Assembly: GCF_000969985.1 (NCBI RefSeq)
Contig: NZ_CP009526.1
Span: 4,402,001-4,466,000 of the forward strand
DNA from: Methanosarcina barkeri str. Wiesmoor
GTDB taxonomy: Archaea > Halobacteriota > Methanosarcinia > Methanosarcinales > Methanosarcinaceae
Direction: 5' to 3'
Length of the DNA: 64,000 nt
Part shown: in pieces, positions 3,448 to 23,625 of the stretch
How positions within the stretch are numbered: position 1 is the first letter of the stretch
How the letters are laid out: the number at the start of each line of letters is the position of its first letter
Notes under the pieces: model-generated
The model's database searches: none
What the model saw: the letters and a program-made list of their open reading frames with translations, nothing else
What the model was told of the DNA's origin: nothing
Program-made: the position numbers and the translations under genes

Positions 3448-5175
3448 ATCAAGAAAAATCAGCAATATATCTTAATAGGGGCAATAGCCATAATTATTGC
3501 TGCTGCTGTTGCTTTCATGCCTGGTGACGAGCCAGCTAGTCCGGCCTCCGGAGTATCGGATGAATCGGTTTCCGAAGGTTCAGATGCGTTAGCTCCCGGA
3601 GATTCGAATGAATCAACTTCCCAGGGCTCGGATGAGTTAGCTTCTGGAGATTCAAAAGAATCAACTTCCCAGGGCTCGAATGAGCTGGTAGCAGCTGTCG
3701 GAACACATGGCGGAGAGCCGGAAACCGGTTTTAACCCGATTACCGGATGGGGTTATAGTCATGAACCGCTGGTCCAAAGTACTCTTTTTAAAAAGGACAG
3801 TAATGGGTCTCTTATCACAGATTTAGCGACAAATTATTCTGTTAGTGACGATGGGTTTACCTGGACTGTTAATATAAGAGATGACGTAAAATTCCATGAT
3901 GGGGTACCTTTAACTGCCAGAGATGTAGCATTCACGTTTAATACCGCAGCAAATTCGAGTGGAGTCGATCTCTCAGTACTGAAAAATGCGGTAGTCCTCG
4001 ATAACTACACGGTTGAATTCACATTAAACGATCCGCAGACGACTTTTATTCACAAGCTTGTAGCTATCGGGATTGTGCCTGAACATGCCTATAATGATAC
4101 TTACGGAGAAAATCCGATTGGGTCAGGCCCATATCGATTTGTAGAATGGGATAAAGGTCAGCAGGCAATCTTTGAAGCAAATCCGGATTACTACGGTCAG
4201 GCACCTTACTTTAAAAAATTAACTTTACTCTTCATGCAGTCCGACACGGCTTTCGCGGCAGCTAAATCAGGACAGGTTGACATAGCTGAAATTCCTTCTT
4301 CCTACGCTGATCAGAAAGTAGATGGAATGAAAATAGTGTCCCTTAGTTCCATTGATGCTCGGGGAATAACCTTCCCAATGCAGCCCGACACGGGAAAGAA
4401 AACGGAAAATGGCTACTCAATCGGAAATAATGTAACCTCCGATCCTGCGATACGAAAAGCTCTGAACATTGGAATAGACAGGCAGACCTTAATCGATGGA
4501 GCATTAAACGGGCAGGGTGAAGAGGAATTTACGGGTGTGGACAAACTACCCTGGGGCAATAAGGACGCTATATTCGAAGACGGAAAAGTAGACGAAGCAA
4601 AGAAGCTTTTAGCGGACGCCGGCTGGAAAGATACCGATGGTGATGGCATTCTTGAAAAGAATGGAACGAAAGCAGAATTTACCTTATTGTATTCCTCAAA
4701 CGCCCAGGAAAGGCAAGCCTTAGCCGTTGCACTGAGCGAGGAAGCTAAAGAACTGGGAATAAACATTAAAGTCGAAGGTAAGAGCTGGGACGAGATTGAT
4801 ACCCTGGCGCATTCAACTCCTGTAGTTTTCGGATACGGTTCGCTGGATCCAACGGACTTATACCTGAGATATTACAGCAAAAGCTACGACCCTTCAAACT
4901 ACAACAATATAATACTATACAACAATTCGGTCGTGGACAACTATCTAAAGACAGCCATAACTAGCACTGATCAGGATACTGCCAATAAAAACTGGCAACT
5001 GGCTGCCTGGGATGGAACAACAGGATTTTCTGAAAAAGGAGACGCTACCTGGCTCTGGATTGCAACTATTAATTACATGTACATTATGGACGAGGATATA
5101 GATTTCGGGACTCCCAAAATCCAGCCTCATGGTGCCAATATCTTCGGTAATATCCTGGAGTGGAAACGTACATAA
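3448..5175 (+). CDS. ABC importer substrate-binding protein, peptide/nickel family (SBP_bac_5)
   Basis: Extracytoplasmic binding protein that would deliver peptide, nickel or a nickel chelate to the permeases encoded downstream. The first ATG is at 3517, but the frame is open upstream and encodes a textbook signal peptide (KKNQQYILIGAIAIIIAAA) preceded by GGAGGAG at 3436-3442. The matching start is ATC at 3448, so a non-standard start or a start-codon mutation is implied. After the signal comes a Ser/Glu/Asp-rich linker of imperfect repeats (STSQGSDELASGDSKE-like), then the binding domain with LATNYSVSDDGFTWTVNIRDD and VKFHDGVPLTARDVAFTF, hallmarks of the DppA/OppA/NikA family. No lipobox cysteine is seen. 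Ligand cannot be told from sequence. Confidence 0.85.
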   Translation: MKKNQQYILIGAIAIIIAAAVAFMPGDEPASPASGVSDESVSEGSDALAPGDSNESTSQGSDELASGDSKESTSQGSNELVAAVGTHGGEPETGFNPITGWGYSHEPLVQSTLFKKDSNGSLITDLATNYSVSDDGFTWTVNIRDDVKFHDGVPLTARDVAFTFNTAANSSGVDLSVLKNAVVLDNYTVEFTLNDPQTTFIHKLVAIGIVPEHAYNDTYGENPIGSGPYRFVEWDKGQQAIFEANPDYYGQAPYFKKLTLLFMQSDTAFAAAKSGQVDIAEIPSSYADQKVDGMKIVSLSSIDARGITFPMQPDTGKKTENGYSIGNNVTSDPAIRKALNIGIDRQTLIDGALNGQGEEEFTGVDKLPWGNKDAIFEDGKVDEAKKLLADAGWKDTDGDGILEKNGTKAEFTLLYSSNAQERQALAVALSEEAKELGINIKVEGKSWDEIDTLAHSTPVVFGYGSLDPTDLYLRYYSKSYDPSNYNNIILYNNSVVDNYLKTAITSTDQDTANKNWQLAAWDGTTGFSEKGDATWLWIATINYMYIMDEDIDFGTPKIQPHGANIFGNILEWKRT

Positions 5176-5202
5176 AATTAAACCGAAACTGGATTTTGGA
5201 AA

Positions 5203-5245
5203 GGAACGGTCATGAAAGTCTCTCAGTAAGGCTGAGGACCGTTCC
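5203..5245 (+). terminator. Hairpin between binding protein and permease genes
   Basis: GGAACGGTC at 5203-5211 pairs with GACCGTTCC at 5237-5245, with a second inner stem CTCAG/CTGAG. It lies 30 nt after the binding-protein stop and could trim or partly terminate the message, giving more binding protein than permease. Function is inferred. Confidence 0.45.
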
Positions 5246-5614
5246 CTAAAGTTCTTAGTAAAACTGAGGATGAAAAAGACGGCGAAAAATTAACTATTAG
5301 TGATTAATCCTGTAGTTAGCAATTAATCAATTCCGTAATTAGTGAATAACTGAGCCTTTAATTCTGATCTTGCATGTTCAGTTATTGCATGTTCAGTTAT
5401 TGCATGTTCAGTTATTCATTTTTCCTTTCTTTTTGTCCACAGATGGGTTTGATGTGACCGATTGGAAAAGGTATAAAACACCTGTTTTACCGGATTTAAT
5501 CTTATTTTAGCTTTAAAAATTGCGAAAACTCCTACTAATCCCTGAAACCGTTCACAAATTGGTATTTACGTTAAAATGGACAGCATTATAGAATAATATG
5601 TATGAGGGAGTAGC
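5246..5614. other. Intergenic region with a 15-bp tandem repeat
   Basis: About 370 bases without a gene. It holds three tandem copies of a 15-bp unit (TGCATGTTCAGTTAT) at about 5370-5418 and ends with the ribosome binding site GAGGGAG at 5604-5610. Confidence 0.6.
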
Positions 5615-6607
5615 GTGTCAAACAATGAAAAAATAGCGGGCTTCATCGGAAAAAAGGCCTTCAGGTTGGCAAGCCTTTTGATTATAGTTTGTCTTGCAAG
5701 TTTCATGCTTATACAGTATTCGCCTATAGATCCCGTTAGAGCCTATATCGGGGAAATGCCAGTAACCGCAGAACACAAAGCTAAACTTGAAGCTTACTGG
5801 GGGGTTAATATCCCTCCGCAGGAAAAGTTCCTGAACTGGGCTGGAGATATTCTTAAAGGAGACTTTGGGACTTCACTGATTTATAGGGTTCCAGTTATTG
5901 ATGTCATTAAAGAACGATTTACAGCTTCCCTTGTTCTAATGGGAATTTCTTGGCTATTTTCAGGAATTTTAGGTTTTGCTTTAGGAATAATAGCGGGCGC
6001 GAAGCAAGGTACGTGGGTCGATAAGGCAATAAAAATTTATTGTTACGCTCTGGCTGCTGCACCGACATTCTGGTTAGCACTGGTTCTTCTAATAGTGTTT
6101 TCAGTATATTTGGGCTGGTTCCCAATAGGATTACGTGTACCTATAGGGGTTACAGCCGACAATGTAACGTTTTTTGATTGGTTCAAGCGTTTAATTCTCC
6201 CGGCACTAACTTTGAGTTTATTAGACATTGCCAAAATTACAATGTTCACTCGAGAAAAATTAATCGAAGTCCTCTCCAGTGATTATGTCTTATTTGCAAA
6301 GGCAAGAGGTGAAAAAGGTCTGGATCTTGTATTGAGGCATGGAATTCGAAACGTTGCACTTCCGGCCATTACCCTGCAGTTTTTAGGATTCAGTGAACTG
6401 TTCGGGGGCACAGTTCTGGTTGAACAGGTATTCTCATATCCCGGAATCGGACAGACTGCAGTGGCAGCAGGACTGGGATCCGATGTACCACTGCTTTTGG
6501 GAATAGTCATCTTCAGCACTTTATTTGTATTCTTCGGAAACCTGATTGCTGATATTATCTATGAATTTGTTGACCCCAGGATAAAGCAACAGGAGGCATT
6601 AATGTGA
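5615..6607 (+). CDS. ABC importer permease, DppB/NikB type
   Basis: Inner-membrane permease of 330 residues with about six membrane segments. The N-terminus (ASFMLIQYSPIDPVRAYIG) and the C-terminal LVEQVFSYPGIGQTAV are characteristic of the DppB/OppB/NikB half. The coupling segment with ARGEKGLDLVLRHGIRNVALP contacts the ATPases. The GTG start at 5615 follows GAGGGAG at 4 nt spacing. The stop overlaps the next start by 4 bp, so the two permeases are translationally coupled. Confidence 0.93.
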   Translation: MSNNEKIAGFIGKKAFRLASLLIIVCLASFMLIQYSPIDPVRAYIGEMPVTAEHKAKLEAYWGVNIPPQEKFLNWAGDILKGDFGTSLIYRVPVIDVIKERFTASLVLMGISWLFSGILGFALGIIAGAKQGTWVDKAIKIYCYALAAAPTFWLALVLLIVFSVYLGWFPIGLRVPIGVTADNVTFFDWFKRLILPALTLSLLDIAKITMFTREKLIEVLSSDYVLFAKARGEKGLDLVLRHGIRNVALPAITLQFLGFSELFGGTVLVEQVFSYPGIGQTAVAAGLGSDVPLLLGIVIFSTLFVFFGNLIADIIYEFVDPRIKQQEALM

Positions 6608-7461
6608 GCACTACTGTTGTGACAGTTAACAGGGGACTATTTAGAGGATTAAATCTCAGGCAGAAAACGCTTCTGATAATAGGTTTCACTTCACTTTTAT
6701 TACTTTCAATTGTGGTTTCCAGCGTGTTTTTAGGTGAGGAACCGCTACATACCAATTTCGGCTCTAAAAACCTTGCTCCTTCTCTGGAACACCCATTCGG
6801 AACAGATTGGATGGGAAGAGACATGTTTATAAGGACTCTGGAAGGACTGGGTTTAAGTATACTGGTTGGAGGGCTTGCTTCTACAATCAGCACTGTATTG
6901 ACCGTAATTTTAGGATTACTTTCAAGTGCAGGAAAAACTGCAGACTCCTTTGTGTCGTGGCTGGTAGACCTCTTTCTTTCAATTCCTCATCTGCTTTTAA
7001 TAATTCTTATTTCCATCGGAATGGGAGGAGGAGCAACAGGAGTTATTACCGGAGTTGCATTAACGCACTGGCCAAGCTTAACAAGGGTCGTAAGAGCAGA
7101 AATCAAGCAACTGAAAACCCAGGAGTACATTCATATCTCCAGGAATCTTGGCAGGTCAAAATGGTGGATAGCTACAAGACACATTCTACCTCATCTGGTT
7201 CCCCAGATACTGTTAGGCACGATTTTAATGTTTCCACATGCGATTTTGCACGAAGCTTCAGTCACATTCCTGGGGTTCGGGCTTTCACCACATGAACCGG
7301 CAATCGGTATAATTCTTTCCGAATCTATGAGGTATCTTTCAGCAGGATACTGGTGGCTTGCATTTTTCCCGGGATTGTCGCTGTTAATTGTAGTTCTGGC
7401 ATTTGATATGATTGGAGAAAGTTTAGGAAAGCTGATGAATCCGAAAAATGCTCATGAATAA
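6604..7461 (+). CDS. ABC importer permease, DppC/NikC type
   Basis: Second permease half, 285 residues, pairing with the upstream DppB/NikB-type subunit. It has the typical N-terminal membrane segment, then HPFGTDWMGRDMFIRTLEGL, the usual signature of the DppC/NikC subfamily, and the EASVTFLGFGLSPHEPAIG region near the C-terminus. It starts with GTG at 6604, overlapping the previous gene's stop (ATGTGA). The following ATPase genes are 327 bases away across a repeat array, an unusually wide gap inside such an operon. Confidence 0.93.
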   Translation: MSTTVVTVNRGLFRGLNLRQKTLLIIGFTSLLLLSIVVSSVFLGEEPLHTNFGSKNLAPSLEHPFGTDWMGRDMFIRTLEGLGLSILVGGLASTISTVLTVILGLLSSAGKTADSFVSWLVDLFLSIPHLLLIILISIGMGGGATGVITGVALTHWPSLTRVVRAEIKQLKTQEYIHISRNLGRSKWWIATRHILPHLVPQILLGTILMFPHAILHEASVTFLGFGLSPHEPAIGIILSESMRYLSAGYWWLAFFPGLSLLIVVLAFDMIGESLGKLMNPKNAHE

Positions 7462-7479
7462 ATTTCTTTTGTTACTTGA

Positions 7480-7750
7480 TTCAAAATATAGTGGAGTTGA
7501 AATTTACTGGAGTTGAAATCTACTGGATTCAAAATGTGCTGGATTCAAAATTTACTAGATTCGAAATTTACTAAATTCAAAATGTGCCGGATTCAAAATT
7601 TACTAGATTCAAAATATGCTGGATTCAAAATGTGCCGGATTCAAAATTAACTAGATTCAAAATATGCTGGATTCAAAATTTACTAGATTCAAAATTTACT
7701 AGATTCAAAATGTGCTGGATTAGAAATGCTGGATCTAAAATGTACTGAAT
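7480..7750. repeat. Degenerate tandem repeat between permease and ATPase genes
   Basis: Roughly 15-17 imperfect copies of a 15-18-bp unit based on GATTCAAAATTTACTA or GATTCAAAATGTGCTG fill the space between the nikC-like and nikD-like genes. No gene is visible in it. It may lengthen the untranslated message between the two halves of the operon. Confidence 0.85.
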
Positions 7751-7788
7751 AAAAAAGATGTTAGATTTAGATCTGGAGAGCGTGAAAT

Positions 7789-8847
7789 ATGGGAAATAAA
7801 GCTGAAATAAACCCTGAAAAAGAGTTAGCTACTAGACTTGAAACAGTTGCTGGAAAGGATAAAACAGTTACTGGAAAAAGGGATAAAACAATTGCTGGGG
7901 AACGGAAAAAAACTGAAGCTCTGTTGAACGTAGAAGATCTTTCGTTGTCGTTTACTCAATATGCGTTTGGGCTTAGACAGACTGAACTGAAAGTAATTTC
8001 TAATTTGAGTATCCAGGCTTATAAAGGTGAAATTCTGGCTATTGTAGGGTCAAGCGGCTCAGGTAAAAGTCTTCTGGCTCATGCGATTTTAGGAATTTTG
8101 CCTTCAAACGCAAAACTAGAAGGCAAGATCGAATACGATGGCGAAGAACTTACCCAGGAAAGAAAAGAAGAAATGAGAGGCAAAGAAATTGCCCTGATCC
8201 CGCAAGCTATAACCTATCTTGACCCTTTAATGAAAATCTCAAATCAAGTAATAGGATGCGTTGAAAAAGAAAAAGAAGGCTTAATGAAGAAACTTCAGAG
8301 AGAAATTTTTCGGAGATACGATTTAAAACCCGATGTCGAAAGAATGCTCCCTCATGAGCTCTCAGGAGGAATGGCTCGAAGAGTTCTGGTTTCGACTGCT
8401 GTAATAAGCTCTTCAAAACTCGTAATTGCGGATGAACCAACTCCAGGGTTAGACGAAAATACTTTGAATGAGACCCTGAGTTACTTCAAAGACATGGCAG
8501 ATAAGGGGTGTGCAGTGATACTCATAACTCATGACATTGAAGCTGCATTAAAAATCTCCCATAAAATCGCAGTATTTTATGCAGGTACGGTCCTGGAAGT
8601 AGCTAATGTTGAAGACTTTAAAAATAATGGTGAGAACCTAAGACACCCGTATACCCGTGCACTCTGGAATGCCCTTCCCCAGAACAACTTCCAGGCAATC
8701 AAAGGCCATCAACCGATGCAGGATGAAGTCATTGACGGATGCATTTTCTATGAAAGATGTTCCAAAAAGAAAGCTAGCTGTTCTCAGGGAACTCCTCAAT
8801 TGAAACAGGTCAATGGAGGGATGGTGAGGTGCAATAATGCGTCTTAA
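7789..8847 (+). CDS. ABC importer ATPase, DppD/NikD type
   Basis: Cytoplasmic ATPase of 352 residues. After a Lys/Glu/Thr-rich N-terminal extension of about 40 residues with repeated KTxxGxxKT units, it shows Walker A GSSGSGKS, ABC signature LSGGMARR and Walker B LVIADEPT followed by a D-loop (PGLDE). The C-terminus has the oligopeptide/dipeptide transporter extension with cysteines (CIFYERCSKKKASC), common in Dpp/Opp/Nik ATPases, sometimes with an Fe-S cluster. It overlaps the next ATPase by 11 bases. Start ATG 7789 follows GGAGAG. Confidence 0.93.
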   Translation: MGNKAEINPEKELATRLETVAGKDKTVTGKRDKTIAGERKKTEALLNVEDLSLSFTQYAFGLRQTELKVISNLSIQAYKGEILAIVGSSGSGKSLLAHAILGILPSNAKLEGKIEYDGEELTQERKEEMRGKEIALIPQAITYLDPLMKISNQVIGCVEKEKEGLMKKLQREIFRRYDLKPDVERMLPHELSGGMARRVLVSTAVISSSKLVIADEPTPGLDENTLNETLSYFKDMADKGCAVILITHDIEAALKISHKIAVFYAGTVLEVANVEDFKNNGENLRHPYTRALWNALPQNNFQAIKGHQPMQDEVIDGCIFYERCSKKKASCSQGTPQLKQVNGGMVRCNNAS

Positions 8848-9448
8848 AGGTGAGAACATAAGTTTCGGGTATAAAACAAATAACTTGATTTTAAAGGATG
8901 TTAATATTTCTTTGGGCAACGGAGAAGTACTGGGCCTGATCGGGGATAGTGGAAGCGGAAAATCAACTCTCTGTAAGATCTTAGCAGGCTACGAAAATAA
9001 GTATCAGGGGAAGGTAAGTCTAGATGGGAAAGAAATCCCGTCAAAAGGCTATAATCCGGTCCAGCTCGTTTTTCAACATCCGGAAAAAGCTGTAAACCCT
9101 AAATGGAGAATGAAAGATATTCTAAACGAAGGACACCTTGTTTCACAGGATATTATAGAGGCATTTGGAATAAAAAATAACTGGCTTAACCGATGGCCCA
9201 ATGAGCTTTCAGGAGGAGAACTTCAGAGGTTTGCCCTTGCAAGAGCTTTAAGCCCTAAAACCAGGTTTTTAATTGCTGATGAAATTACTACAATGGTAGA
9301 CGCTATTACTCAAGCTCAAATCTGGAATATCGTTTTAAATATCGTCGAAGAACTTAATATTGGAGTACTGGTCGTAAGCCATGACAGAAATTTAATTAAC
9401 AGATTATGTCACAATACAATTTATCTAAAAGACATAAATAATACTTGA
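8837..9448 (+). CDS. ABC importer ATPase, DppF/NikE type (short)
   Basis: Second ATPase of the importer, 203 residues, with Walker A GDSGSGKST, signature LSGGELQR, Walker B RFLIADE and the switch His in VVSHDRN. It is shorter than usual (OppF/NikE proteins are often 250-330 residues) because it ends just after the nucleotide-binding core and lacks the C-terminal oligopeptide-transporter extension. It overlaps the upstream ATPase, which supports cotranslation. Confidence 0.92.
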   Translation: MRLKGENISFGYKTNNLILKDVNISLGNGEVLGLIGDSGSGKSTLCKILAGYENKYQGKVSLDGKEIPSKGYNPVQLVFQHPEKAVNPKWRMKDILNEGHLVSQDIIEAFGIKNNWLNRWPNELSGGELQRFALARALSPKTRFLIADEITTMVDAITQAQIWNIVLNIVEELNIGVLVVSHDRNLINRLCHNTIYLKDINNT

Positions 9449-10196
9449 CAAAAACAAATAGTGCTTGACAAAAACCAAAATAATACTTGACAAAAAAGTG
9501 AGCCAATATTTAATATAATGTCTAATGTTTAATTTTGAAGTCTTTTTGTATTATATAACGAAGCGTAAAACCACCTGGCTCTAACCTGGAGGTTATAACT
9601 TCAACCTAATTTTTTTCCATATAGTATTAACGACCGGTTTTAGTACAGAGCTCTCGAGTCTGATTTTAATTTTCTTCAAATTCGATTCACCGTTTTACGA
9701 CAAAAACTATGCATTATTAAAACAAGAAAAAAGGCGTTTTGTCAGCTTAACCTTGCAACTCTGAATATTTTGTAACTCTGAATATATTGTAACTCTGAGT
9801 ATTTTGTAACTCTGAATATTTTGTAACTCTGAGTATTCGCAATATGGTTCTTAACATGGTTCTATGTATAATATTTCATGTTTCTTTCAAGAAAAGTTTA
9901 TAAATTCCACAGTAACTTTTATCCAGTGCTTCTGTACATGTGTACGAATCATCTTTATATGCAGTACACTTCGACGTGTATTCACATTTCATATCAAACA
10001 AATTTGTTTTCCCGAACACTATGTTAAAAAGTTTCATATGATAATATACGATATTAACATATATAACTTTATTTAGTAGTTGACGATTATGTAACTCCCC
10101 ACACGGGAATTTCTACGTTTTTATCCAAGAGTTTTACGAGGCTATCTCAAAACCTGTTTTATTCCAAGTCACTTAAGGAAATTATCCATCTTACTC
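9449..10196. other. Intergenic region with two short tandem repeat arrays
   Basis: No convincing gene. At about 9443-9500 there are three copies of a unit ending CTTGACAAAAA. At 9757-9838 there are five copies of a 17-bp unit (AACTCTGAATATTTTGT), starting at 9757, 9774, 9791, 9808 and 9825. A 70-codon open frame at 9864-10076 has no ribosome binding site and a Phe/Ile/Cys-rich composition that looks non-coding. Confidence 0.7.
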
Positions 10197-11085: not shown

Positions 11086-11229
11086 CCAATTATTGGTTTT
11101 TTCCTTTCAACTAAATCTTCCTATATAAGTATCACACACTAAATATATATCTGTTGTTATCTCTGACTCGTATATGATATTTAAATGCAGACATATTAAA
11201 AATAGAGTAACGGCTGATGAAAAAGTAGT

Positions 11230-11385
11230 AATGAACAAGGAATGATGAGCAAAGAATGATGAGCAAAGAATAACGAACAAAGAATAACGAACAAAGAATA
11301 ACGAACAAAGAATAACGAGCAAAGAATAATGAACAAAGAATAATGAGCAAAGAATGATGAGCAAAAAATGATGAGCAAGGAATAG
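11230..11385. repeat. 14-bp tandem repeat
   Basis: About eleven copies of a 14-bp unit alternating between AATGATGAGCAAAG and AATAACGAACAAAG lie just downstream of leuB. Since 14 is not a multiple of 3 and the unit lacks stops in the minus-strand frames, all three minus frames stay open with the same peptide periodicity. These open frames are artefacts of the repeat, not genes. Confidence 0.92.
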
Positions 11386-13313: not shown

Positions 13314-14651
13314 TTACTTTTGTAGTTGAACGGCATTTTCATTGCTTTTTTCTTTGAGATGAGAGTCAAAAGCACTTGGTTCCCCTCCTCCGTGCCAGCT
13401 TAGCCTCGGGCGGATGCGCACAAGATGAACTGACTCGGAATGGTCATCCACTATCAGGGCAGCCCCTCTTTCACTTCCCATCTTCTTAATATATGCCTGG
13501 AGATTTTCCTGCATATAAAGAGGCCGTGAAGTTTCCAGAGCAAGAATATCATCACTTGCCGTAAGGCGGTGGCAGATAAGAAGGTCACTCTGGGAAACAA
13601 CATCCGGATGCAGGCTTGCAGGCCGTTGGGTTGCCAGGACAAGGGAAAGGCCAGGCTGCCGGCCCTGTCTGAGGCAGCGGTTAATAAGTACCTTCGAAGC
13701 AAGGCCTTCAGTCTTTGCGGGTATGAAAATGTGAGCCTCATCTATAAAGAGCCAGACCATGGGAAATTCTTCCCTATGAGCCTTTTCTCCCATAAGTTTT
13801 TTTTCGTAGGTTCTTCTTGCCTCAAGTCTTGCTTCATAAAGTCTACCTGCAATAATTGATACTGCTGCAGCGCAGACGTTTTCGTTTTCAAGCGTACTCA
13901 CATCAAGGATAGTTGTTCTCCCTCCCGACACGAGATCTGACAGTTTTGTTCCTTCTTTTGAGAAAAGGCCCCAGGAATTTACTGCTCTAAAGTAATTCTC
14001 TACAGCTCCTTTTGAAGCCTCATCCGAGCGAGGGTCTCCGGCAATCTCGCGGAGAATTTCTTCAAAAGAATATGCTTCTCCTTTTTCTCTGAGGGATTCT
14101 ATTGCTCTTACCATTAGAATTCCAGGAGGAGAAACCTCTTCGATACTAAAGATCCTGCACCACTGGCTTCCTGAAAGTTCGCTTATCGGGATGGAAAATG
14201 GCTTTACATCAATATTCCTTTCCCTATAAGCTTCAACCTTGCCCACAGGCACGAAAATCTCAATATCGAGCCCGGCTGGAGTGAGTTCCCAGTTTTTAAG
14301 CTTCCGCGCTTCAAAAGCGTTTGGATACTTCATCGTCCAGAAAATCCCCATAGTGTCAATAACAACGGATGCAAGTCTTTTTTTAATGGCCGGTTCAAGA
14401 AAAGCAAGTTCTTCAAGCAAACAGCCCATGGTATAGGATTTTCCGTATCCTCTTTTCCCGCAGATCAAAATAGCATGAGGCTTCAGGGCATCAAGATAAA
14501 CGGCTGCTCCCCGCGAGTGGTCAAGTGCCATGTAATTTCCAATTGACAGGAGACCCTTTCCAGGGTTCTCTTCACTTCCAAGTACACGCAGCGCCCCAGT
14601 ATTTTTCCCCCGAAAAACAGGCCTTAGTTCTTTATTTTCAATTTTAGGCAT
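13314..14651 (-). CDS. HerA-like DUF87 ATPase
   Basis: P-loop ATPase of the HerA/VirB4-like (DUF87) group, 445 residues. N-terminal beta-rich part (LLSIGNYMALDHSRGAAVYL), Walker A CGKRGYGKSYTMG, a middle segment, Walker B WLFIDEAHIFIPA and the sensor LVLATQRPASLHPDVVSQSD, followed by ICHRLTASDD. HerA proteins pump or process DNA, often with NurA in end resection, but no nurA, mre11 or rad50 gene is adjacent, so this may be one of the orphan relatives. A decayed copy of its N-terminal region lies at 16478-16565. Confidence 0.88.
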   Translation of the reverse strand: MPKIENKELRPVFRGKNTGALRVLGSEENPGKGLLSIGNYMALDHSRGAAVYLDALKPHAILICGKRGYGKSYTMGCLLEELAFLEPAIKKRLASVVIDTMGIFWTMKYPNAFEARKLKNWELTPAGLDIEIFVPVGKVEAYRERNIDVKPFSIPISELSGSQWCRIFSIEEVSPPGILMVRAIESLREKGEAYSFEEILREIAGDPRSDEASKGAVENYFRAVNSWGLFSKEGTKLSDLVSGGRTTILDVSTLENENVCAAAVSIIAGRLYEARLEARRTYEKKLMGEKAHREEFPMVWLFIDEAHIFIPAKTEGLASKVLINRCLRQGRQPGLSLVLATQRPASLHPDVVSQSDLLICHRLTASDDILALETSRPLYMQENLQAYIKKMGSERGAALIVDDHSESVHLVRIRPRLSWHGGGEPSAFDSHLKEKSNENAVQLQK

Positions 14652-14918
14652 CAGATAGTATCGGATTGAAAACTATTTAAAATAATTTACTTAATAACAG
14701 TTAAATAAAATAAGTATTGTAACTAGTATAAAGGGTGATATGTAGCTTTAATTTATTTTATGTAGGCTGAATAGTTACATTTATTATTAATTAATACATT
14801 TATAGTGTATCTTACATAAGGCAGTGGCAAAAGAGAGTTGGAACGAAATTAATAAAAAACAATTGCAGCCGAAAGTAGGATTTTTAGTAAAATAAATAGT
14901 TTAGGTGGGAAGGTATAA
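14652..14918 (+). promoter_or_regulatory. Upstream region of the putative modified-peptide operon
   Basis: AT-rich divergent region between the HerA-like gene and the small WCVACGAG protein. A TATA-like TTTATAGTG lies at about 14809-14817, about 100 bases before the start codon, allowing a long 5' untranslated region. The ribosome binding site GGTGGGAAGG is at about 14903-14912. Confidence 0.4.
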
Positions 14919-15287
14919 ATGGAACTTACAGAAAAGCAGCGTACTTTATTGAAAGGACAGATTGAAGAATTTCTAAAGACTAAAAATTCTGAAGACGATT
15001 GGTGTGTTGCATGCGGAGCAGGGGCTGCAGAGTCAAAAGATTTGTTGTCCAGAGATCCGGAAATATATCGTCAATTTACTTCTAAAGAAACAATAAATGA
15101 TTTGCTTACATCTCCCACAGTTTCAGCACTGATTCAAAAAAGTGGTTCTAATATGTGGTGTGTTGCTTGTGGTGCAGGCAAAAGTAAATCACTTGGTGAA
15201 GATGTGATTAATCCTGCGATGAATAAGGGGTCATCCGCAGAGATTGATAAAGCAATGACCAAAGTCATTGAAATTCTTAAAGAATGA
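14919..15287 (+). CDS. Putative radical-SAM-modified peptide precursor with two WCVACGAG motifs
   Basis: Small soluble protein of 122 residues with no membrane segment. The only cysteines are in two identical octapeptides, WCVACGAG at residues 28-35 and 80-87. Residues 1-27 are charged and helical-looking (MELTEKQRTLLKGQIEEFLK), like a RiPP leader; the tail (EIDKAMTKVIEILKE) is also helical. It is followed 51 bases later by a radical SAM/SPASM enzyme, the arrangement typical of peptide-modifying systems such as sactipeptides and ranthipeptides. I infer that the enzyme modifies the Trp/Cys motifs. Alternatives: a CxxC metal-binding or redox protein matured by the enzyme. I do not recognise a named family. 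Confidence 0.8.
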   Translation: MELTEKQRTLLKGQIEEFLKTKNSEDDWCVACGAGAAESKDLLSRDPEIYRQFTSKETINDLLTSPTVSALIQKSGSNMWCVACGAGKSKSLGEDVINPAMNKGSSAEIDKAMTKVIEILKE

Positions 15288-15301
15288 ATCTGAGATTCAT
15301 T
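15283..15301 (+). terminator. Hairpin and T-run between precursor and radical SAM gene
   Basis: AATGAATC (15283-15290) and GATTCATT (15294-15301) form a perfect 8-bp stem with a 3-nt loop, overlapping the precursor stop codon and followed by TATTCTTTTTTCTTTTTAA. It may partly terminate transcription, giving much more precursor than enzyme message, as is common in RiPP operons. Confidence 0.6.
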
Positions 15302-15338
15302 ATTCTTTTTTCTTTTTAATATTTGAGGGGACTTTGAA

Positions 15339-16430
15339 ATGGAATTATATAAGTCTAAATTAGTTCGAATTTTTTATAATATTACAAATCGTTGCAATTT
15401 ATACTGTCATTATTGTTATGCAGGTTCTGGTCATCCAGTTGATCAAGCCCAACTATCCTTAGATACTATTGAACGTATAGCTTCAGACGGGAGAAAGTGT
15501 GGTGCAAGTTCGGTACTTCTATCTGGGGGTGAGCCTTTTTTTCGTAAAGATTGGTTTGATGTGTTTAGCGTTTTCGATGATTATGGATACGACTTATCAG
15601 TTAGTTCAAATGGAACATTGATAAATGAAAAAACTATTCAAAAGTTAACAAAATTTAAAAATATAATATTTCAAATAAGTTTAGATGCATCTGAACAAAA
15701 TTTTGATAAAATTGTTGGTGTTAATGGAACGTTCAAGCGAGTGACAAAAGCAATAGATCTCTTGCTAGCAAATGGATATGAAATTCAAGTTAACAGTGTG
15801 TTGCATAAAAGCAACTTTCAGGATATACCTTTCTTAATACGATATTCTTATGAACGAGAGTTGTTATTACGTTTTACTCTTCTTAGCACAGATTATGGTA
15901 GAGCGAAAGGAAGTCCTTTAAGTCTTGATTTGAGCCAAATTCAAAAGGTTATTCAGGCAGTTCACGTTTCCAGAAAAGTAAATCCATACGTAGAATTAAA
16001 TATTCCACCATTACTTCTTCATCCAGACGACTTATTCCATATTTCTCCTTCGTGTGGGTGGATGCATCATCAGTGTGGAATACAAAGTAATGGCGACGTA
16101 ACTATTTGTGGACTCTCCGGTGGTAGACCAGATCTTGTGGCAGGTAATGTAAAATCACAATCGTTGGAATATCTGTGGAATAACTCTCCTCTATTTAGGA
16201 AACTGCGATTGTTGGAAATCACTAAGATCAAAGAAATTTGTGGAATTTGTCCGTTTTTAAGTGTATGTGGGGGGTCATGCAGGCTAACTCCTTACATATC
16301 GACTGGAGACTTTTACGCTCCGAACGGTGTTTGTCAGATGTTTTATGAAGCATTGAAGCGTGGTGATATAGAAGACTTTCCTTCCTATGTGATCAATCTG
16401 GGTTTTATGGAGTGCCTATCTCAAAATTAA
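15339..16430 (+). CDS. Radical SAM/SPASM peptide-modifying enzyme
   Basis: Radical SAM enzyme of 363 residues. The cluster motif CNLYCHYC (Cys 19, 23, 26) binds the 4Fe-4S used to split S-adenosylmethionine; LLSGGEPFFRKDW is the GGEP motif and SLDASEQNFDKI a typical strand. The C-terminus has a SPASM domain: CGIQSNGDVTIC, then CGICPFLSVCGGSC (C-x2-C-x5-C-x3-C) and a last Cys in NGVCQMF, expected to bind auxiliary Fe-S clusters. The start ATG 15339 follows TTGAGGGGAC. The gene lies directly after the two-motif small protein, its likely substrate. No peptidase or exporter is next to it. Confidence 0.9.
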   Translation: MELYKSKLVRIFYNITNRCNLYCHYCYAGSGHPVDQAQLSLDTIERIASDGRKCGASSVLLSGGEPFFRKDWFDVFSVFDDYGYDLSVSSNGTLINEKTIQKLTKFKNIIFQISLDASEQNFDKIVGVNGTFKRVTKAIDLLLANGYEIQVNSVLHKSNFQDIPFLIRYSYERELLLRFTLLSTDYGRAKGSPLSLDLSQIQKVIQAVHVSRKVNPYVELNIPPLLLHPDDLFHISPSCGWMHHQCGIQSNGDVTICGLSGGRPDLVAGNVKSQSLEYLWNNSPLFRKLRLLEITKIKEICGICPFLSVCGGSCRLTPYISTGDFYAPNGVCQMFYEALKRGDIEDFPSYVINLGFMECLSQN

Positions 16431-16477
16431 TATGTAATATGTAGGATATGGTAGGGAAGTCACTCTCACCTTCTCAT

Positions 16478-16565
16478 TAAACGGTAGCTCTCAGCGAGTG
16501 GTTAAATGCCATGTAATTTCCAATGGACATGATGCCTTTTCTGGGATATCCTCACTTCTAAAAAC
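16478..16565 (-). pseudogene. Decayed fragment of a second herA-like gene
   Basis: About 85 bases align almost without gaps to the N-terminal coding part of the HerA-like gene (14507-14590). Read on the minus strand they give SEDIPEKA, a frame break, then SIGNYMAFNHSLRAT, matching SIGNYMALDHSRGAA. It sits on the far side of the putative RiPP pair, so the pair is bracketed by herA sequence. I infer a duplication or recombination at this locus. Confidence 0.8.
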
Positions 16566-16672
16566 TAAAACTCTAAAAATTCAGAATCTCTAAAATATAA
16601 AGGTTAAGAGCTTAGCTCAACCCTGAAAAGTAAATATTAGAATGTCTCAGAAAATTATATGGAACTATTTGT

Positions 16673-22885: not shown

Positions 22886-23625
22886 GGCTTTGGTAGTTAA
22901 CTATAGTTATATATTATGAGAACCTATATTTCTATATGAACTGCCCAAGGTGTAATAGTTCCACTCACAAAAAGAATGGTATAGTATTTGGACGTCAACA
23001 CTACAAATGCCATGATTGTGGATATAATTATACCGTAGAGGTAAAATCAACTGCTAGCTCCCCTTCTGTTAAGAGACAGGCTTTGCAACTCTATCTTGAA
23101 GGGTTAGGATTTCGCTCAATAGGAAGATTTTTAGGAGTAAGTCATGTTTCTGTCCAAAAATGGATAAAGAAATTTGGTCAGGAGTTGGAGGACCTAAAAA
23201 GCGAAAATGAGATATCTATTGTTGAAATGGATGAGATGAACACTTACATCGGTAACAAAAAAAATATTGCTGGATCTGAATTGCTGTTGATAGAGTTGGG
23301 AAAAAATTCATCAACTGCTCTTTTGGCAGCAGAGGAACGGAAACTGGACAACTAATATGGGAAAAATTAAAGCAAAAAGAGATTGGAGAGGTGATGACAG
23401 ATCACTGGAGAGCATATGCAGAGTTTCTTCCAGAAAATATTCATACTCAATCCAAAGCCGAAACGTATACAGTTGAAGGATATAACGGCATATTGAAGCA
23501 CTTTCTGGCAAGGTTGAGACGAAAGACAAAATGTTATACGAAGAGTATTGAAATGCTAAAGTACTCTGTTCTTCTATTGATGAAACATAGAAATAAAGAG
23601 ATAGCTATAATTAGTTAACAATACC
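22886..23625 (+). mobile_element. IS1-family element, copy 1 (inactivated)
   Basis: A 740-bp element starting GGCTTTGGTAGTTAAC and ending GTTAACAATACC, imperfect inverted ends. It is almost identical to the copy at 26986-27725 in the same orientation, with only a handful of base differences. No 8-9-bp direct repeat is visible at its flanks, unlike copy 2. The transposase is broken. Confidence 0.88.
22936..23618 (+). pseudogene. IS1-family transposase, copy 1
   Basis: The first frame (22936-23355) encodes a zinc-ribbon start (CPRCNSSTHKKNG, CHDCGYNY), an HTH segment (LGFRSIGRFLGVSHVSVQKW) and the first catalytic region EMDEMNTYIGNKK. After an A8 run (23257-23264), where IS1 elements use a -1 frameshift, the shifted frame reads KYCWI, a TGA stop (23274-23276), then IAVDRVGKKFINCSFGSRGT and the rest to 23618 (DHWRAYAEFLPE, VEGYNGILKHFLARLRRKTK). 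So even with frameshifting the protein is cut by a TGA where Trp is usual. Confidence 0.85.

Follow-up and report, generated by a model that had tools for sequence, protein, structure and literature searches.

Does a 122-residue protein with two identical octapeptides form a peptide-modifying system with the radical SAM/SPASM enzyme encoded next to it? This question is raised by two adjacent genes in a 64,000-nucleotide stretch (the window) of a Methanosarcina-like methanogen genome of 4.9 Mb. The radical SAM RiPPs studied experimentally are mostly bacterial. A review of these systems contains no word starting with "archae" (PMC8326336). Our reading, held with moderate confidence and drawn from sequence, is that the two genes make up a minimal pair of RiPP type that was acquired horizontally and whose enzyme would modify the Cys residues, and perhaps the Trp residues, of both WCVACGAG motifs.

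The small protein and its WCVACGAG motifs

The candidate precursor or substrate is 122 amino acids long (positions 14919 to 15287, + strand). Its translation bears out the preliminary description: WCVACGAG occurs at residues 28 to 35 (15000 to 15023, +) and again at residues 80 to 87 (15156 to 15179, +; the two are listed as direct repeat D3), and the Cys residues at 29, 32, 81, and 84 and the Trp residues at 28 and 80, all within the motifs, are the only ones in the protein. When the composition was shuffled (n = 20,000), an exact internal repeat of at least eight residues arose in none of the shuffles, the maximum being seven residues, reached once. The WCVACGAG repeat is beyond chance. A search of the protein's own genome found one copy of the small protein and only two matches to the motif.

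We compared the two halves of the protein and observed that the Cys/Trp octapeptides are the only similarity kept between them. The sequences flanking the motifs are unrelated, with an alignment score of 21 against a shuffled mean of 22.6. In the motif DNA, 4 of the 24 bases differ between the two copies, each change being synonymous, a pattern that is illustrative and not a formal test because the octapeptide was picked for its identity. Since several silent changes lie beside fully diverged flanks, these data suggest that the two motifs derive from an old duplication in which eight residues were held by selection.

The preliminary description had placed the motifs between charged helical segments. 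AlphaFold2 run without an alignment lends this weak support, giving helices at residues 5 to 21, 92 to 103, and 106 to 121 with a mean pLDDT of 46. No Cys4 fold is present in this low-confidence model. The only NCBIfam match to the protein was a sub-threshold L37e fragment, and the Pfam matches were likewise all below cut-off, including zinc-knuckle- and zinc-finger-like segments and CCDC84 (20 bits; cut-off, 25.3). PHROGs gave weak CxxCG-type matches and assigned no family.

These matches bear on the possibility that the small protein is an unmodified metal-binding protein, in which the two CxxCG knuckles make a Zn site or an Fe-S, rubredoxin-like Cys4 site and which donates electrons to the enzyme, acts as its scaffold, or has a role independent of it. 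The sub-threshold zinc-finger and L37e fragments speak for this possibility, as does the occurrence of WCxxCG doublets in zinc-ribbon-like reading frames at loci, such as L177, L173, and L213, that have no radical SAM motif. However, eight identical residues, Ala and Gly among them, with flanks that are not shared exceed what Cys ligands need. Zinc ribbons usually carry a hydrophobic strand after the CG, whereas the segments that follow it here, AGAAESKD and AGKSKSLG, have none, and the absence of a Cys4 fold from the model also counts against a metal site. We regard this explanation as doubtful and prefer the reading of the small protein as a maturase substrate.

The radical SAM/SPASM enzyme

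The downstream gene (15339 to 16430, +) encodes an intact protein of 363 amino acids, identified by its Pfam domains and motif cysteines. That a radical SAM/SPASM gene lies 51 nt downstream was claimed in the preliminary description and holds, since both domains score above the Pfam cut-offs: Radical_SAM (PF04055) at 84.9 bits against 29.5, and a C-terminal SPASM domain (PF13186) at 38.3 bits against 21.5. The CX3CX2C radical SAM motif is formed by C19, C23, and C26, a GGEP motif is present, and the SPASM region carries a full set of eight cysteines (239, 246, 257, 301, 304, 310, 314, and 332); seven or eight are expected where a SPASM domain binds two auxiliary clusters. Whether AuxI has four Cys ligands (fully ligated) or three (open) tells SPASM enzyme types apart. 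Pairing the cysteines with those of AhbD by motif order assigns C301, C304, C310, and C332 to AuxII and C239, C257, and C314 to AuxI (PMC10452713). C246 may be a fourth AuxI ligand, which matters because AuxI is open in the thioether-forming CteB and not in SuiB or anSME (PMC10452713).

The best sequence matches of the enzyme in the PDB were PqqE (E 2.8e-15), SkfB (1.5e-13), and SuiB (1.5e-11), followed by MoaA. A Foldseek search with the enzyme model, in which the barrel is confident and the SPASM part has low confidence, returned SuiB, SkfB, and PqqE at the top, each with a probability of 1.00 and with 17 to 22% identity in the fold alignments. By these sequence and model matches, most of the solved structures closest to the enzyme belong to RiPP maturases. 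Like them, the enzyme combines a radical SAM barrel bearing CX3CX2C with a SPASM region. Unlike them, it has no N-terminal RRE and no PqqD partner that we could find, its similarity to them is weak, and its candidate substrate has 122 residues with two internal cores. No PqqD/RRE domain was found by Pfam or NCBIfam in the enzyme or in the neighboring genes, a search that divergent RREs may escape. An RRE is dispensable in some RiPP classes.

No NCBIfam subfamily model reached its cut-off. The top model was WgkB (NF050035), a streptococcal Trp-Lys crosslinking maturase, at 149.6 bits against a cut-off of 650, and the small protein has no WGK motif. AhbD (TIGR04545) scored 134.8 bits (cut-off, 500) and NirJ 121.2 (cut-off, 515). 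Because AhbD and NirJ, which do not act on peptides, score near WgkB and all three fall far under their cut-offs, the fold alone is not diagnostic of a peptide substrate. The AhbD of the same genome is 27% identical to the enzyme and has a similar order of SPASM cysteines. However, the likely host AhbD is encoded elsewhere (L108), next to siroheme-pathway-like genes, and is distinct from the 363-residue enzyme. Another known system, ACGX (TIGR04340), acts with an ACGx-repeat peptide, and Ala-Cys-Gly also occurs within each WCVACGAG. The small protein, in contrast, has no ACGx tandem repeats and is matched by no ACGX target model of NCBIfam at E ≤ 10, and TIGR04340 (cut-off, 400) is not among the best 25 NCBIfam models for the enzyme, the 25th of which scores 59.7 bits.

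The small-protein and enzyme genes are both intact, adjacent, and co-oriented. The 51-nt spacer between them (15288 to 15338, +) contains an AT-rich hairpin, AATGAATC-TGA-GATTCATT, which overlaps the stop codon and is followed by a T-rich run. The hairpin is not significant against shuffles (z = -0.27); together with the T-rich run, it is a possible leaky terminator. We also noted that both genes lie in one reading frame from 14919 to 16427 and that the intervening in-frame stops are all TGA, so that the frame is open under table 4, which is probably a coincidence. A fused chain read through the TGA codons, for which table 4 was used for modeling only, was submitted to AlphaFold2, which did not place or dock the small protein confidently on the enzyme.

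Genomic slot, probable foreign origin, and search for relatives

The pair lies in a species-specific insert (about 14711 to 16576, with approximate edges) within a variable slot between conserved HerA-like (PF01935) and DUF1246/DUF1297 genes. These flanking genes agree with the earlier claim that no peptidase or exporter is encoded beside the pair. In sister species, the same slot holds 123 bp (L104), a flavodoxin-fold oxidoreductase (L099 to L102), or a TnpB-like gene (L106); in L098 it holds an apparently damaged copy of the flavodoxin-fold oxidoreductase. A remnant copy of the HerA-like gene, from its 5' part, lies where the insert ends downstream (16478 to 16561, -) and is 83% identical to 14497 to 14560 over 64 nt, suggesting that the slot was rearranged when the cargo arrived. 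The GC3 of the small gene is 0.254 and that of the enzyme gene is 0.253, against 0.40 to 0.49 in the neighbors, and GC is 0.30 to 0.37 over most of the gene pair. Both genes have a foreign codon usage. Because the two share the same foreign GC3 and a single insert that is absent from the sister genomes, the pair looks like cargo that was acquired together, recently, and as a unit.

Two further features of the window were observed. Between genes at 11107 to 11378 (-), a short direct repeat of low complexity, LxIxLCSLFFxxYSL, makes up three overlapping frames. A further radical SAM protein of 341 amino acids (PF04055; 25224 to 26249, -) is encoded beside a glycosyltransferase-like gene and is flanked by two near-identical transposase-like reading frames at 22936 and 27036.

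We consider it unlikely that only chance or shared mobility made the two genes neighbors, with the small protein serving an unrelated function and the enzyme having a different substrate, either another protein or a small molecule. The broad SPASM group does include the heme makers AhbD and NirJ, the enzyme falls under the cut-off of every peptide-maturase family, and the slot swaps its cargo among species. However, the genes share one strand, a 51-nt gap, an equal GC3, and one insert, and the genome has a separate gene for AhbD itself. Cys/Trp core repeats, moreover, are a classic substrate feature for radical SAM/SPASM maturases, and the small protein has them. These points favor a functional pair of maturase and substrate.

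When WCxxCGxG proteins were sought beside SPASM genes in other genomes, as the preliminary description had proposed, no further example came to light. The small protein had no convincing relative in 186 genomes of the order, in plasmids, or in viral contigs. Its order-wide matches (E 0.02 to 0.7) were short and of low identity, many of them within longer unrelated frames, and were rejected. Scans with DNA patterns for WCxACGAG (viral contigs), WCxACGxG (order), and doubled WCxxCG (viral contigs) turned up no second system; the motif matches fell in frames that were short or lay outside genes, in repeats of low complexity, or in zinc-ribbon-like proteins. Only one of the matched loci, L192, carried a radical SAM motif, and it was discarded because its frame is of low complexity. 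The small protein was not seen to be common without the enzyme in these searches.

For the enzyme, no ortholog was found in the 186 genomes of the order, where the best other match has 33% identity (E 1.5e-41), or, with E ≤ 1e-40 as the limit, among 393 genomes from the phylum. A GTDB-wide scan of 84,980 species genomes, made with six exact 8-residue patterns that detect close relatives only and could miss intermediate bacterial relatives, found no close relative of the enzyme; the one match, a radical SAM protein in L042 (24%), is unrelated. The DNA of the pair had no plasmid match. Within the order, the enzyme's nearest relative (30 to 33%; L030/L107) is itself nearly unique and belongs to a cluster of four SPASM genes and a PqqD-like gene without the WC motif.

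The cluster at L107 (G174; 4683 to 9873, -) belongs to another genome of the genus and comprises four radical SAM/SPASM genes and one for an 87-residue PqqD-like protein. The nearest relative of the 363-residue enzyme is a protein of 372 amino acids, and an IPPxLxxPD-type segment is common to both. The L107 cluster has no obvious precursor.

Since no second example was found, the functional link between the two genes rests on their adjacency in one genome. Of the RiPP role put forward in the preliminary description, the maturase-like structural matches, the equal foreign GC3 and shared insert, and the octapeptides as the sole retained residues are in its favor; an RRE was not recognized and a second genome did not appear. 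The RiPP interpretation is plausible, resting on one genome, and the pair looks like a new form of a known type of peptide-modifying system, with no other instance to date.

Proposed modification and its precedents

If the enzyme is a maturase, its N-terminal [4Fe-4S] cluster would be the site of SAM cleavage. The 5'-deoxyadenosyl radical generated there would abstract hydrogen from one residue per core, and the role of the auxiliary clusters would be to bind a core Cys, to accept the electron, or to do both. A core Cys would thereby be joined to a nearby residue, giving an intrapeptide crosslink twice per protein. Each bond would cost 2 Da (-2 Da), and the protein would thus lose up to 4 or 8 Da (-4 or -8 Da). 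A Trp-Cys bond is possible, but a Cys thioether would be more likely, since this is the route of the maturases of sactipeptides and ranthipeptides, which are the SPASM enzymes best known for Cys-rich substrates (PMC8326336). With neither a peptidase nor an exporter encoded next to the pair, the product would either remain on the protein or be processed by enzymes encoded elsewhere.

Both unusual features of this proposal have parallels. In TvgA/TvgB, as proposed here, one radical SAM enzyme acts on repeated short cores in one precursor; there, however, the cores are TVGG, Val is converted to cyclopropylglycine, and the tvg cluster includes oxidase and peptidase/transporter genes (PMC9062424). 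In quinohemoprotein amine dehydrogenase, the small-protein substrate QhpC is Cys-crosslinked by the radical SAM enzyme QhpD and the product is protein-bound, but that system has a 28-residue leader cut by QhpE, the flavoprotein QhpG, and partner subunits, none of which is present here (PMC7876137). Since repeated cores (TvgA) and a protein-sized, Cys-crosslinked substrate (QhpC) each have precedent, their combination would be a variation on a known kind of system.

A bolder version of the proposal is that the one SPASM enzyme puts the same crosslink or redox group on both WCVACGAG sites, making an uncleaved two-site cofactor or metal-binding protein that would found a new archaeal class. We consider this improbable. 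A modification other than a crosslink (epimerisation, Trp oxidation, or a cysteine tryptophylquinone-like step) that yields a protein-bound redox cofactor seems very unlikely: Trp and Cys adjoin in each core, no peptidase was found nearby, and a radical SAM enzyme is known to mature a protein-bound tryptophylquinone subunit (PMC7876137), but QhpD itself forms Cys-to-Asp/Glu bonds (PMC7876137), the quinone requires the separate flavoprotein QhpG, absent here, and the sequence holds nothing that would select such chemistry.

As a crosslinking RiPP-type pair, a two-gene unit with two identical cores and a protein-sized substrate would be compact enough for in vitro work. It would reveal how one SPASM enzyme reaches two distant sites when no domain for binding a leader can be recognized in it. 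Few protein-derived cofactors are known to be made by radical SAM enzymes, and a product retained on the protein would be one more.

Elsewhere in the order, related archaea encode other SPASM enzymes that adjoin proteins with long Cys-repeat tails (NNPCPAGQPNTPCPMG, CLAGKPDNTIT, CLRGPIQ, and CPPSP). These lie in L037 (2769 to 3497, 1411 to 2844, and 26 to 1333, all -), L033 (2785 to 3837, -), L038 (2874 to 3878, -), and L032 (176 to 1141, +). An N-terminal PqqD-like domain was confirmed in the SPASM enzymes of L037 and L038, the two that were checked. Some of the tails are attached to subtilase (PF00082) or M4-peptidase (PF02868) domains, and L037 has an eCIS-core (PF13699) protein on its other side. 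The tail proteins are possibly a family of exported proteins modified by maturases. Although these loci differ from the WCVACGAG system, they are cases within the order of a SPASM enzyme encoded next to a large protein with repeats.
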